Source of the DNA: Bacteroidaceae bacterium
GTDB lineage: Bacteria > Bacteroidota > Bacteroidia > Bacteroidales > Bacteroidaceae
Assembly (NCBI GenBank): GCA_024401225.1
Contig: JAKSLM010000018.1
Coordinates: 1 to 48,169 of the forward strand
Length of the DNA: 48,169 nucleotides
Reading direction: 5' to 3'
This document shows positions 2,107 through 11,385 of this stretch, piece by piece. Positions within the stretch are counted from its first letter, which is position 1. Every line of letters begins with the position of its first letter. The notes under the pieces are model-generated. The model saw only the letters and a list, made by a program, of their open reading frames with translations, was not told the origin of the DNA and searched no databases. The translations under genes and the position numbers were made by a program.

Positions 2107-3366
2107 TCATTTCCTCACCTGTCCGTTACCTTTTATAATCCATTTGTAAGTTGTGATCTCTTCGAGTGCCATAGGGCCTCGAGCGTGTAGCTTCTGGGTA
2201 GAGATGCCTATCTCTGCTCCGAGTCCGAATTGTGCTCCATCAGTGAATGCTGTTGGAGCATTATGGTATACACAGGCTGCATCGACCTGGCGAAGGAACT
2301 GGGATGCGGTGGCCTCGTTGTCGGTGATGATGCACTCGCTGTGTCCCGATCCGTTGTGGCGGATGTGGCGGATGGCTTCATTGGCCGAGGCAACGGTCTT
2401 GATGGCCATGGTGTAGGAGAGGAACTCGGTACCGTAGCTCTCATCGGTCGATGGGCGCAAAAGTTCGGCAGGGTAGGAACCCTGAAGTGCTGCCAGCGAT
2501 GGAGCATCGGCATAGATGAGTACATTGCTGTCCTGCAGAGGACGGCAGATGGCTGGGAGGTCGGAGAGACGATCCTCGTGCAGAAGCATGCAGTCGAGAG
2601 CATTGCATACGCTGACGCGGCGTGTCTTGGCATTGTTGATGATGGCTGTGCCTTTCTGAAGGTCGGCATCCTTGTCGAAGTAGGCGTGGCAAACTCCGGC
2701 TCCGGTCTCGATGACTGGTACGGAGGCTTCGGTGCGCACGAAGTCGATGAGTCGCTTGCTGCCTCGTGGGATAACGAGGTCGACCAGTCCGTTGGCATGA
2801 AGGAGCTGGGCTGTAGCCTCGTGAGTGGCAGGAAGGAGGGTGATGACATCGGGATTGATGTGCATCTCCGTAAGTATCTGGCGGATGATGCCTACCACCT
2901 TCTGATTGGTAGCATCGGCATCCTTACCTCCCTTGAGTACGCATGCGCTACCCGCCTTGAGGCAGAGCGAGAAGACGTCGAAGGTGACGTTAGGACGAGC
3001 CTCGTAGACCACGCCTATCACACCGAATGGCACGGATATGCGAGTGAGCTCAAGACCGTTAGGCAGTACGCTTTGCTTGAGGATGCGACCGAGGGGCGAT
3101 GGGAGCGAAGCCACATTGCGCATGTCGGATGCGATGGCAGCAAGGCGATCGTCGGTGAGCTTGAGACGGTCGTAGAGTGGATTGTCGGGCGACATCTTTG
3201 CCAAGTCTTCGCTGTTGGCCTCGATGATGGCTTGTGAATGAACATGGATGGAGTCGGCGATGCGCAGAAGGATGCCGTTGATGGTTGCCTCGTCAAGGAG
3301 GGCTATGTCGATTGATGCGTCTTTGGCGCTCTGAAGAAGTGATGTCAGCATAGGAATTCGGTGCAT
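2107..3366 (-). CDS. proA: Glutamate-5-semialdehyde dehydrogenase (gamma-glutamyl phosphate reductase)
   Basis: Second step of proline synthesis: NADPH reduction of gamma-glutamyl phosphate to glutamate semialdehyde, which cyclises to pyrroline-5-carboxylate. The 419-residue length is normal. Visible motifs are [14 protein letters not shown] (about 113-126), the LKGGKDA cofactor loop (about 144-150), ETGAGVCH (220-227) and [10 protein letters not shown] with the probable catalytic C254. Its start overlaps the end of proB by 22 bp on the same strand, indicating translational coupling. It is adjacent to a hydroxyproline dehydratase locus that makes the same P5C. Confidence 0.96.
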
Positions 3367-4109
3367 GGGGTGTTGTCGCGATCGGACATGATACGAATGA
3401 GGATATTGTCGCGCTTGCCGTTGGCAATGATGACTGAGATGCCTTCAGCAGCGGTGTTGGCAGCTACGCTCGATTTGCTCTGCATACCGCCGCGTCCGGC
3501 GCTCGATTTGGCTGTCTGGATGTAGTCGGAGAGGTCCTTGCCTGGTTTTACAATCGAGATGAGGCGCGACTCAGGGTCGTTAGGGTTGCCGGTGTAGATA
3601 CCATCTATGTTGGAAAGGATGATGAGCATCTGCGACTGAGTCATGCGCGCTATGAGGCCTGACAGTTCGTCGTTGTCGGTAAACATCAGCTCGGTGATGC
3701 TAACGGTGTCGTTCTCGTTTACGATAGGCAGAACGGCGTTGTCCAGCATGACGCGGAAGCAGTTCTCCTGATTCTTACGGTGATCGTTGTCGCCGAAGTT
3801 CTCCTTTGTGGTAAGTACCTGACCTACGGAGATGCCGTATTCGCGGAACATCTCAAAGTAGCGGTTCATCAGTTTCGCCTGGCCTACAGCTGAGAAGAGC
3901 TGACGCTGATCGACTGAGTCGAGGTCGTGCTGTATGTGCTTGAGCTCGCTGCGTCCCGAAGCCACGGCTCCCGAGGACACGAGGATCACCTCATGTCCCT
4001 GCTGGCGCAGTATGGCTATCTGATCGACAAGGGCAGACATGCGGGTCACGTCAAGACTGCCGTCCTGGCGTGTGAGTACATTGCTGCCTATCTTTATCGT
4101 GATTCTCAT
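3345..4109 (-). CDS. proB: Glutamate 5-kinase (kinase domain only)
   Basis: Phosphorylates glutamate to gamma-glutamyl phosphate, the committed step of proline synthesis. The 254 residues make up the amino-acid kinase domain alone: KIGSNVL at the N-terminus, the VSSGAVASG phosphate-binding loop, NENDTVS, and [18 protein letters not shown] near the C-terminus. The C-terminal PUA domain of the E. coli enzyme (about 367 residues) is absent; shorter forms exist in other bacteria, so this is not obviously a truncation. It is the first gene of a proB-proA operon, with a -7 element 96 bp upstream. Confidence 0.95.
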
Positions 4110-7190: not shown

Positions 7191-9683
7191 TTAGAATTCC
7201 TCGTTTTCAGTACGAGCTATGATCTCGTTCTGCAACTGCTCGGTCATGTCGTTGAAGTAGTCGGAATAACCTGCTACGCGAACGAGCAGATCCTTGTAGT
7301 CCTCAGGAGTTTGCTGAGCATCGAGGAGCGTCTGCGTATCAACGATGTTGAACTGGATGTGATGTCCACCCATAGAGAAATAGGTACGGATGAGGGATAC
7401 GAGCTTCTTCAGGTCGTCCTCACGCTTGAGCAGGCTTGGGATGAAGCGAACGTTGAGCAGCGTTCCACCCGACTTGGTCTGATCGAGCTTGCCAAGACTC
7501 TTGATGACCGATGTAGGACCATTGGTGTCGGCTCCGTGAGCGGGACTTGTTCCGTCGCTGATGGCAAACTTGGCAAGACGACCGTTGCAGCTTGCTCCGC
7601 ACACGCTTCCGAAGTAGTTGTGGCAAGTGGTTGAGAGCATGTTGAGCTGGGTTGTGCCACCGCGTGTGTTAGGATGTCCTTCGATGGCATCCACAAGGTC
7701 GTCGTATACCTTGACTGCTATGCTGTCTGCATACTCATCATCGTTGCCAAAGAATGGGGTGCGGTTCATGATGAACTGGCGCATCTTCTCATTGCCCTCA
7801 AAGTTCTCGCTTACAGCCTTGAGAATCTCGTCCATGGTGAACTTCTTGTCCTCAAACACGTGCTTCTTGAGTGTAGACAGACAGTCGGTAATGGTGCCGA
7901 GGCCTGTACACTGGATGTAAGTTGTGTTGTATCGGGCACCACCGCTATAGTAGTCGCGGCCTCGTGCCACACAGTCGTCGATGAAGAGGCTGAGGAAGGT
8001 GGCTGGAGCATAAAGCGAGAACATGCGCTCGATGTAATTGTTGACAGCCAGCTTCATGTTTACGAAGTATAGCATCTGCTTATGGTAGGCATCGTACAAT
8101 TGCTCGTACGAGGTGAATGTGCGTGGATCGCCAGTCTCCAGTCCGAGTTTCTTGCCTGTCATAGGGTCGATACCGTTGTTGAGTGTGATCTCCAGAATCT
8201 TAGGAGTGTTCAGATAGCCTGTAAGGATGTAAGCCTCCTTACCGAATGCACCTACCTCGATGCAGCCCGAGCAACCGCCTTCGTTGGCATCCTCCTGGCT
8301 CTTTCCCTGGCGCACCAGTTCCTGAGTGTAGGTGTCGGGGTTGAAGCATGATGGGTAGCCATGGCCCTGTCGTATCACCTTTGCTCCTGCAAGCACAAAC
8401 TCGTCTGGAGTCACCTTGCTCACATGGATTGAAAGGCCTGGCTGCAGTTCGTGAAGTTCTTCCTGAACCTCAAGTATTATGTATGAGAGATCGTTGACAG
8501 CATCGTTGCCGTACTTGTCGATACCTCCGATGTTGATATTCGTGAAGTCGTTGTATGTACCTGATTCAAGAGCTGTGACGCCTACCTTCGGAGGAGCAGG
8601 CTGGTTGTTGAACTTGATCCAGAAACATGATATGAGTTCCTTTGCCTTCTCGCGTGTCATAGTGCCATCCTCAATGCCTTTCTTATAGAATGGGTAGAGA
8701 TGCTGGTCGATGTGTCCAGGATTCATGCAGTCCCATCCGTTGAGCTCAGTCACCGTACCGAGGTGAGTGAACCAGTAGGTTTGAATGGCTTCCTGCATGT
8801 CGCGTGGAGCATGGGCAGGCACCCAACGGCATGTGTCGGCTATTTTACGAAGTTCCAAGACCCTCTCTGCCCTTTGGGCATCTCCCCCTCTATGGGGAGA
8901 GCCATCCGGGTTGAGTCCTTGCTCGAGCATGGCAGCTTGGCGCTCGGCTTCTTCTGCATGGCGCTCAGCGAAGAGAATGGCTGCATCGCACGAGATGTCC
9001 ATAGCCTGCAGCTCCTGCTGCTTGTCGGTAGCCTCAGGATCGTTGATGAAGTCGAGGTTGGCAAGCACTTCTGCAATCTGTGCCTTCACATCGAGCAGAC
9101 CGCGCTGGTACATCTTGCCGTCCATAGCAGTATGACCACCGGCACGCTGTTCCATAAACTCGGTGAAGACTCCTGCATGGTAAGCCTCTTCCCATTCCTT
9201 GCTTACGTGGCTGAAGATGCGCTCGCGCTGCGTACGGCCTTCCCAATAAGGGATAACCTCACGCTCGTAGGTGTCGATGTCCTCCTGCGAGATGTAGTAA
9301 GGCTGCATGTCGCGGTCGTTGAGCGTGTGGAGGTCCTCCACGGTGTGGCAGGTCAGTTCAGGGAATGTAGGTACCGCCTTTGGCACAGGTCCGCGTTCGC
9401 CGACTATGAGTTCATCATCACCTATATATATAGTCTTCTTCTTGCAAATCTCGTAGAAATTGCGGGCACGGAGAATGCAGTTAGGCATTTTGCCATAGTT
9501 CTCCTTGTAGAATGCTGTCTCAATGAGCGCGCGCTCTATGGTCAGGGTGGTTGGAGTGTCGATGCTCTGCTGATGCAGACGCTTGATACGGTCGTTCATG
9601 CCTCCATCATTGCCTGGATACTGGAGTGCATAGTTCATTTTCTGGTGCGGTGCACGGAATGCGCTTTTCTTTACTTCAGTCAT
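7191..9683 (-). CDS. hypD: Glycyl-radical dehydratase, probable trans-4-hydroxy-L-proline dehydratase
   Basis: Predicted to dehydrate trans-4-hydroxy-L-proline to pyrroline-5-carboxylate under anoxic conditions. The 830 residues start at the ATG at 9683; the frame stays open further upstream but without family-like sequence. C474-I-E476 is the Cys-x-Glu of the dehydratase subclass (pyruvate formate-lyase has Cys-Cys), and RVAGYS with G805 is the glycyl-radical site. From memory of the Clostridioides difficile HypD structure, its F152, H160, D278, S334, D339, F340, C434, E436, Y450, T645 and G765 fall here on F176, H184, D318, S374, D379, F380, C474, E476, Y490, T685 and G805. The offset is 24 before and 40 after an insertion at about 261-275. 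The closest alternatives are other CxE glycyl-radical enzymes of unknown substrate. Its activase is at 4338-5237. Confidence 0.8.
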   Translation of the reverse strand: MTEVKKSAFRAPHQKMNYALQYPGNDGGMNDRIKRLHQQSIDTPTTLTIERALIETAFYKENYGKMPNCILRARNFYEICKKKTIYIGDDELIVGERGPVPKAVPTFPELTCHTVEDLHTLNDRDMQPYYISQEDIDTYEREVIPYWEGRTQRERIFSHVSKEWEEAYHAGVFTEFMEQRAGGHTAMDGKMYQRGLLDVKAQIAEVLANLDFINDPEATDKQQELQAMDISCDAAILFAERHAEEAERQAAMLEQGLNPDGSPHRGGDAQRAERVLELRKIADTCRWVPAHAPRDMQEAIQTYWFTHLGTVTELNGWDCMNPGHIDQHLYPFYKKGIEDGTMTREKAKELISCFWIKFNNQPAPPKVGVTALESGTYNDFTNINIGGIDKYGNDAVNDLSYIILEVQEELHELQPGLSIHVSKVTPDEFVLAGAKVIRQGHGYPSCFNPDTYTQELVRQGKSQEDANEGGCSGCIEVGAFGKEAYILTGYLNTPKILEITLNNGIDPMTGKKLGLETGDPRTFTSYEQLYDAYHKQMLYFVNMKLAVNNYIERMFSLYAPATFLSLFIDDCVARGRDYYSGGARYNTTYIQCTGLGTITDCLSTLKKHVFEDKKFTMDEILKAVSENFEGNEKMRQFIMNRTPFFGNDDEYADSIAVKVYDDLVDAIEGHPNTRGGTTQLNMLSTTCHNYFGSVCGASCNGRLAKFAISDGTSPAHGADTNGPTSVIKSLGKLDQTKSGGTLLNVRFIPSLLKREDDLKKLVSLIRTYFSMGGHHIQFNIVDTQTLLDAQQTPEDYKDLLVRVAGYSDYFNDMTEQLQNEIIARTENEEF
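8861..8905. repeat. Palindromic (REP-like) element inside hypD coding sequence
   Basis: Two adjacent hairpins: GCCC-TTT-GGGC (8869-8879) and TCTCCCC-6 nt-GGGGAGA (8881-8887/8894-8900). Paired hairpins of this look are a familiar intergenic repeat in Bacteroidales genomes, as I recall. Here the element is read through in frame and encodes roughly residues 260-275 of the glycyl-radical enzyme (GSPHRGGDAQRAERV), exactly where the residue offset to HypD jumps by 16. Confidence 0.7.
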
Positions 9684-9716
9684 AAAAATTAGCTTGTTAG
9701 GTTTACTATTTGCGTG

Positions 9717-9724
9717 CAAAGATA
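9717..9724 (-). promoter_or_regulatory. -7 element, hypD-like gene
   Basis: TATCTTTG on the minus strand lies 33 bp upstream of the ATG at 9683. It supports that start over the longer open frame. No good -33 TTG is seen. Confidence 0.5.
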
Positions 9725-9767
9725 TAAAATAATTAGCAATTGCGCATGAGGAATTGTAAATTTTTAT

Positions 9768-9775
9768 TATCTTTG
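9768..9775 (+). promoter_or_regulatory. -7 element, GH30 gene
   Basis: TATCTTTG on the plus strand lies 35 bp upstream of the GH30 ATG, divergent from the hypD-like promoter. No -33 TTG is seen at the usual spacing. Confidence 0.5.
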
Positions 9776-9810
9776 CACGCATAAACCTACTAATAAATAC
9801 GACAAAGATA

Positions 9811-11385
9811 ATGAAACTATTACCGAATTTACTTTTTACCGCAGCATTGGCATTAATGCCAGGCACATCCATACATGCACAGAAAGCGCAGCAGTTCACC
9901 ATAACCAGCCGTCAGTGTCAACCGATCGATGGTTTTGGTGCCAGCGATGCGTGGAGTTTCTGGCAGATAGGCACATGGGGTGAACAGATTCAGACGCAGG
10001 TGGCCGACTGGCTCTTCTCGTCCGAGAACGATGCCAATGGCAATCCTAAGGGCATAGCATTGAGCATCTGGCGATTCAATGCTGGAGCAGGAAGTGCATC
10101 TCAGGGCGATTCGGCGCAGATCAATCGCGACACGCGTACCGATTACTATGATAAGCAGGTAGGTCAGCGTAAGTTCCTCCGCATGGCAAAGGAGCGCGGC
10201 GTTCCTACATTCCTGGCATTCTTCAATACTCCTCCTGTCACGATGACCATCAATGGATTAGGAACCAATACCGGTCGTGGTGGTACGTTCAATCTGAAGG
10301 ACGACTGCTACGACGACTTTGCACGCTATACAGCCGATATGATACAGGCAATACAGCGTGAGGACGGAATACACTTTGACTATGTGTGTCCTGTCAACGA
10401 ACCTGATGGCCATTGGAACTGGCAGGGACCTAAGCAGGAAGGCACACCTGCCACCAACCGTGAGATAGCACGCGTGGCACGTGAATTCAATAGCGAATTC
10501 CAGAAGCGTGGCATCACGACAAAGATTCTTGTTAATGAGTCGTCCGACTACCGTTGCATGTTTGGCGAGTATCAGGCAGGATGGGAGCGAGGCAACGAGA
10601 TCCAATGCTTCTGGAATCCCGACTCGACCGATACGTACGTGGGCAATCTGCCAAGCATAGCACGCATCATGGCAGGTCATTCATATTGGACCAACACACC
10701 AATCCTCAAGCCAGGCGATCGCCGCTACGAGCGCGAAGGACTTTATGGCTATCGCAAGCGTATCAAGGATGAGATGGCGAAGGTAAATAAGTATCAGCCA
10801 GTATCGTTCTGGCAAACAGAACTCTGCATTATGTCCAACGATGAGGAGATACATGGAGGCGGCGGATTTGACTTCACTATGGAGGAGGCACTTTATGTGG
10901 CTCGTGTGATGCACTACGACCTCACCGTGGCCAATGCTCAGTCGTGGCAATGGTGGCGTGCTGCAGGAGGCAACTATAAGGACGGACTTATCCGCATGTA
11001 TGTCAAGGGTGAACGTACCGGTGGCAGAGGTCAGCAGAGAGGACGCATAGAGGAAAACTCTGTACGCGATTCGAAATGGATGTGGACACTGGGCAACTTC
11101 AGCCGCTTCGTCCGTCCAGGAGCTGTACGCCTCGATGTAGAGGGGGAACAGCAGATGGAAGGCACTATGGTATCTGCCTACCGTAATGCTGATGGCACCA
11201 CGGCTATCGTAGCCATCAACTACGCAAAGTCCGACTCAAAGGTCAGCCTCAAGGGTCTTGGACGCAGCGCCACCGCCTATCGCACATCGGATGTAGAGGG
11301 TGAGAACCTCAAGAACCTTGGCAGCGTGAAGCTCGCAGAAGCCCTTCTTCCTGCCCGTTCAGTCACAACATTCGTGGTGAAGTGA
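9811..11385 (+). CDS. Secreted glycoside hydrolase family 30 enzyme
   Basis: A 524-residue exported glycosidase. A signal peptide covers residues 1-23 (hydrophobic core then HAQ). The GH30 pattern is clear: IDGFGASDAW near the N-terminus (39-48), acid/base E197 in CPVNEP, nucleophile E337 in FWQTE, and a C-terminal beta-sandwich (about 440-524). The WDAFG-like opening and NEPDGHWNW are closest to what I know of endo-beta-1,6-galactanase and related GH30 members, but substrate cannot be fixed from sequence. Probable action is on plant or host glycans in the periplasm or at the surface. It is monocistronic, ending in a strong hairpin shared with the convergent AraC gene. Confidence 0.88.
   Translation: MKLLPNLLFTAALALMPGTSIHAQKAQQFTITSRQCQPIDGFGASDAWSFWQIGTWGEQIQTQVADWLFSSENDANGNPKGIALSIWRFNAGAGSASQGDSAQINRDTRTDYYDKQVGQRKFLRMAKERGVPTFLAFFNTPPVTMTINGLGTNTGRGGTFNLKDDCYDDFARYTADMIQAIQREDGIHFDYVCPVNEPDGHWNWQGPKQEGTPATNREIARVAREFNSEFQKRGITTKILVNESSDYRCMFGEYQAGWERGNEIQCFWNPDSTDTYVGNLPSIARIMAGHSYWTNTPILKPGDRRYEREGLYGYRKRIKDEMAKVNKYQPVSFWQTELCIMSNDEEIHGGGGFDFTMEEALYVARVMHYDLTVANAQSWQWWRAAGGNYKDGLIRMYVKGERTGGRGQQRGRIEENSVRDSKWMWTLGNFSRFVRPGAVRLDVEGEQQMEGTMVSAYRNADGTTAIVAINYAKSDSKVSLKGLGRSATAYRTSDVEGENLKNLGSVKLAEALLPARSVTTFVVK

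Follow-up and report, generated by a model that had tools for sequence, protein, structure and literature searches.

The hypD gene of a Bacteroidaceae bacterium very probably carries a non-autonomous palindromic repeat, placed in frame at the turn between two predicted helices, which resembles the Rickettsia palindromic elements (RPE) in its behaviour and is kept where the reading frame stays open. The gene lies in the window, that is, the whole stretch of 48,169 nucleotides that was analysed. Sequence comparison establishes the identity of the repeat, its in-frame position, its occurrence in other host genes and the existence of empty and differently filled homologous sites, and the route by which the unit reached the gene is discussed below in conditional terms. 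An earlier note on this DNA had described a palindromic repeat in frame within a glycyl-radical enzyme gene; the repeat is present, with the unit corrected to 8858-8909 (core 8862-8901) and the gene identified as HypD.

Host gene and its surroundings

7191..9902, minus strand: host gene, trans-4-hydroxy-L-proline dehydratase (HypD, glycyl radical enzyme), an ORF of 903 amino acids assigned by NF043068 and 6vxc

The ORF scores 1121 bits against NF043068, the curated equivalog model of HypD (cut-off 1100), and its best solved relative is 6vxc. The catalytic Cys loop GCIE (CXE) and the Gly loop RVAGYSD are present and aligned with those of HypD, and ORF residue 547 corresponds, in the 6vxc alignment, to the residue numbered Cys434 in HypD (PMC7077986). 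The true start is likely Met74 (position 9683), since the alignments of most homologues (best 80 of 554 confirmed places) start between query residues 79 and 102. Outside the loop, the dN/dS of hypD against six relatives is 0.03-0.045, with dS high to saturated, which indicates that purifying selection has kept the HypD protein outside the insert. The same strand continues with a type I pullulanase gene, an ORF matching no family, proB and proA. The last two are found at 2107-4109 of the window, downstream of hypD with the pullulanase between, and proBA also act in pyrroline-5-carboxylate chemistry.

The palindromic unit

8858..8909, minus strand: palindromic repeat unit CCGGATGG-CTCTCCCC..GGGGGAG-ATGCCC..GGGCA-GAGAGGGTCT, from the core match, the own-genome copies and the family consensus
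8882..8901, minus strand: first hairpin, CTCTCCCC / GGGGGAG, paired in 113-148 of 150 distinct copies
8868..8880, minus strand: second hairpin, TGCCC / GGGCA, paired in 148-150 of 150 distinct copies, with one covarying pair

The unit is 52 bp long (CCGGATGG...GGGTCT), its bounds being set by comparison with other copies, and the 40-base core matches exactly at 8862-8901 of the minus strand (mean of 0.00 in 100 shuffles). In hypD it is read in frame as PDGSPHRGGDAQRAERV. The offset between the ORF and 6vxc changes from 77 before the loop to 93 after it, a net gain of 16 residues, as the earlier note had estimated; the HypD offsets of 24 and 40 that it had given would agree with these values, supposing a protein start at Met74 and a 20-residue tag on the PDB chain.

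The two hairpins are a feature of the repeat family. Since most stem bases, including part of one arm of the first hairpin, were set by the search pattern, only the unconstrained pair of the second stem, where Y and R were free independently, tests covariation; across the 150 distinct copies this pair is T-A in 96, C-G in 53 and mismatched in 1, a count that subfamily history may inflate. Taken by itself, the copy in the window has its best fold as a single longer stem (z -1.98), which 7 of 200 shuffles equalled. No Rfam match was found between 8700 and 9050 at E up to 1. In relatives, many of the copies listed are, by eye, composites of about 120 bases with inverted ends AGACCCTC...GAGGGTCT, of which the window copy represents the right-hand unit only, without the left end.

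Spread of the repeat among genomes

The strict pattern found 12 sites in the bacterium's own genome. One of them, the window copy, lies in a gene according to the coding test described below, 10 fail this test and 1 is too near a contig end. The repeat was also present in 24 of 36 congeners (25/37 with the own genome included) and in none of 24 genomes that represent other families within the order. Overall, 25 of 61 genomes hold it, and a reversed-pattern control gave 0 matches in all 61. A family-wide draw with a slightly looser pattern found it in 20 of 201 genomes, belonging to 5 of 30 genera. By these matches, the window segment is one copy of a repeat dispersed through a Bacteroidaceae genus. 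Some of the listed intergenic copies (L005, L013, L159, L186 and others) stop, by eye, just short of a start codon, with GGGTCT followed within a few bases by ATG, as though they lay in leader regions.

Copies translated inside genes

Coding was judged by a codon-usage score on both flanks of each copy. The sample was non-random, combining strict-pattern hits from selected genomes with loci retrieved for leucyl-tRNA synthetase (LeuRS), and 5 of its 161 copies were dropped for lying too near a contig end. Of the remaining 156, 37 are embedded in an uninterrupted coding frame. A further 3 are flanked by coding sequence left and right on one strand, but no frame runs through; 63 have coding sequence on a single side, and 53 have none. 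A count based on ORFs (91 copies: 53 inside ORFs, 14 at edges, 24 between) was set aside as too generous, because it takes in chance and upstream ORFs. The in-gene copies would be translated, judging from their open frames. They use the three forward frames 17, 15 and 2 times and the reverse orientation 3 times, some orthologues being counted more than once, and this preference for two reading frames points to filtering at the protein level.

Regarding the host proteins in relatives, a single family profile spans the insert in LeuRS, SpoU methylase, AroE (shikimate dehydrogenase), topoisomerase I, homoserine dehydrogenase and a PcRGLX-like enzyme; the LeuRS profile score is below cut-off because that locus begins within the gene. 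Altogether, 31 distinct ORF groups had no fewer than 20 codons on each flank of the repeat. A Pfam scan of 29 of these gave a family match for 25, in some cases beside the element and not through it; in L107 the repeat probably stands upstream of the true start, and L109, L112, L133 and L168 gave no match. A MurF-alanine racemase fusion (L164, L170, L188) presents repeat inserts of differing content at one shared site, and more repeat-like segments nearer its start.

Position in the structure model

The model predicts a helix at residues 218-254, a turn at 255-267 and a second helix at 268-287. The insert is thus modelled at the turn joining these long helices, its second half forming part of the second one; the turn would be exposed. 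The 10-residue blocks around the insert have pLDDT values of 74-92 in a model that is middling as a whole (mean pLDDT 68, pTM 0.74). Along the chain, the turn is distant from both the catalytic Cys loop and the Gly loop.

The HypD loop across homologues

The loop was compared in 81 HypD rows, namely the window and the best 80 of 554 confirmed places. It is empty, as a 19-residue segment, in 68 of them and longer in 13, which are spread across the tree, so homologues without an insert exist, as anticipated, whereas the expectation that an insert would be found only in this gene did not hold. By eye, the repeat described here occupies the loop in the window, L027 and L030 (in reverse orientation in the latter). 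Another palindrome is found in L070 and L074, and L073 carries both palindrome kinds; 9-bp repeats are seen in L053 and less clearly in L093, and an AT-rich repeat in L026. This last is the nearest homologue among the best 80 of 554, with a core 95% identical, and bears an unrelated repeat at the same point; the same segment encoded by other DNA, which would have spoken against a repeat, was not seen there.

Nine of the 13 inserts thus resemble genomic repeats and fall into three unrelated kinds; the other four (L036, L075, L076, L083) are unassigned. Pattern counts were made in the genomes of L070, L073, L074, L053, L093 and L026, each with a reversed control of 0. The second palindrome matched 55 times in the L070 genome, 99 in that of L073 and 24 in that of L074. 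The 9-bp pattern matched 74 times in the L053 genome and 115 in the L093 genome, overlapping within arrays, and the L093 insert is itself only a candidate match. The L026 pattern had 6 matches in its genome, the exact one presumably being the insert. By these comparisons the HypD loop is a hot spot for inserts.

A second HypD loop and the LeuRS linker

A scan for further sites was done with the first loop removed, the first 60 and last 20 alignment columns left out, and sparse runs of at least 6 columns considered. It found one site, after VSENFEGN, where 21 of the 81 rows (window and best 80 of 554) have at least 4 extra residues. These rows include L030, L031, L047, L070, L073, L074, L083 and L091, and several of their segments resemble repeat peptides.

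LeuRS was matched in 42 of 45 genus genomes, strongly in 39. Among 30 LeuRS loci, the linker measures 16-23 residues in 25 and 48-54 in 5 (L239, L241, L243, L258, L261); three of the long linkers contain this repeat and two another palindrome-like sequence. Comparison of filled and empty LeuRS sites at the DNA level indicates that the native linker was partly replaced, and no clear target duplication was seen there by eye. Both the second HypD loop and the LeuRS linker seem to behave like the first HypD loop. The idea of a repeat accepted as a peptide is supported by these data, and the earlier note had missed the other genes, the unrelated repeats in the loop and the partly replaced LeuRS linker.

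Search for a mobilising enzyme

Y1 transposases were sought, and no mobilising enzyme could be linked to the repeat: it is absent from all 11 Y1 loci within about 1.5 kb on either side. Y1 hits are lacking in the repeat-holding genomes G007, G013, G014 and G016, and one or two are present in the holders G003, G005, G017 and G020 (G025-G036 were left out of this comparison). A Y1 (RAYT) link was rejected for the own genome too, where the only Y1 transposase is found among copies of another repeat, GATAATCAAAGGGTC... This RAYT-like ORF (L106:1003-2073, contig C11 at about 57.1-58.3 kb) contains its own repeat in frame, GATAATCAAAGGGTC.GACCCCTTGATTATC, read as WIIKGSDPLIIH, and 5 of the 13 genome sites of the GATAATCAAAGGGTC repeat are clustered at it.

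Comparison with known systems

Protein-decorating palindromes are already known. Rickettsia palindromic elements are described as many-copy palindromes that insert in frame into unrelated genes, whose products thereby gain a translated peptide (PMC10969869, PMC3733652), with a length of about 150 bp (PMC10969869). The repeat studied here is likewise palindromic, multicopy and in frame in unrelated genes, its translation being deduced from open frames, so the likeness proposed earlier holds in behaviour. However, its host belongs to another phylum (order Bacteroidales by the nearest HypD relatives, best 80 of 554), it was found in Bacteroidaceae assemblies of 2.1-4.4 Mb, its unit is about 52 bp or, by eye, a composite of about 120 bp, and the loops that host it also hold unrelated repeats. 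It is presumably not a member of the RPE families.

Intragenic REPs of the GTAG and CGTC superfamilies are also short hairpins, often dimers, reported in ORFs of several species, and in two Xanthomonas species the same recB site was struck by REPs that differ from each other (PMC3733652). The present repeat shares with them the short hairpins within ORFs, but no such tag is conserved in its consensus (column make-up of 162 copies) and no RAYT stands beside it in the 11 Y1 loci. The inverted ends seen by eye in composite copies from relatives might recall MITEs, but the window copy is a single unit without the left end, and neither a clear target duplication (in LeuRS) nor a parent transposase among the Y1 transposases sought was found. 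PINSR of Prevotella intermedia, compared by description, is another lineage-specific dispersed repeat of related bacteria, but it is 188 bp long and described as intergenic (PMC4755523), whereas the present one is 52 bp and partly in genes.

Among the matches listed in a search of open-licence literature, there was no account of in-frame palindromes for Bacteroidales, Bacteroidetes, Prevotella or rumen, and one loop with unrelated repeats was not found in the open-licence literature searched. A 2024 review of prokaryotic MITEs presents Rickettsia as unusual for its frequent in-frame palindromes and considers similar protein evolution elsewhere conceivable (PMC10969869).

Origin and persistence of the insert

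Copying of the repeat, either by transposition or by template copying into an already filled loop, may have placed the unit in hypD. Copying into a permissive turn, or exchange at it, would then be followed by the loss of frame-breaking copies. Survival in genes would depend on an open frame and a site at the turn between helices, and the peptide would be tolerated rather than useful. The insert could persist because the frame is open, the peptide is hydrophilic and able to extend a helix, and the turn is distant along the chain from the catalytic loops.

A different route, which concerns how the segment arrived and not its nature, is an old insert-bearing hypD allele, recombined or inherited with many losses, whose content was swapped with genomic repeats, so that the window copy was exchanged and not freshly inserted. 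We regard this as a serious alternative, though somewhat less likely than not. The flanks common to insert rows suggest it: among the 81 rows (window and best 80 of 554), ELRK follows the loop in 11 of 13 insert rows versus 2 of 68 empty ones, and a left [DE]LE extension occurs in 9 of 13 versus 0 of 68. Moreover, the window, L027, L030 and L073 have, by eye, a similar right junction, GGCAGARAGGGTCT followed by GARCT, and L073 is in the other main clade. On the other hand, the window row is without the [DE]LE flank, the left junctions and repeat kinds differ, and LeuRS behaves alike with other flanks. In a quick tree of the 81 rows built without the loop, the inserts need 12 changes, at least 6 of them forced by starred branches, and shuffled labels average 12.3.

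It is quite improbable that the gene retains the segment for regulation, as a hairpin acting in RNA or DNA (an attenuator, a processing site or a protein-binding site). The covariation of one stem pair across copies would fit such a role, as would the number of listed intergenic copies that are, by eye, directly upstream of start codons, but there is no Rfam match, HypD homologues among the best 80 of 554 lack it or have unrelated sequence at the same point, and the two preferred reading frames argue for filtering of the protein. An assembly or binning artefact is less probable still. The own genome is fragmented (105 contigs, 84% complete) and short repeats can misassemble; nevertheless, the reading frame is kept, the same repeat is in the same loop of L027 and L030, and other genes in other genomes are alike, though these are mostly metagenome assemblies too. 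The preferred reading is still that of a non-autonomous palindromic repeat accepted in frame in hypD.

Significance

A broader reading, to which we give about equal chances of being right or wrong, is that a few turns of Bacteroidaceae housekeeping enzymes (two in HypD and one in leucyl-tRNA synthetase) act as standing exchange sites where unrelated genome-wide repeats are copied in frame, swapped and lost. If this is true, several palindromes, 9-bp tandem repeats and AT-rich repeats would take part, and intergenic repeat DNA would continually supply new protein segments. Many cases come from relatives of gut and rumen records; genes for a tRNA synthetase and a topoisomerase are among the hosts, there are close empty sites, and one turn has unrelated repeats. 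This system makes it possible to test the route from repeat DNA to protein, the frames that survive and the cost or gain of the added peptides.
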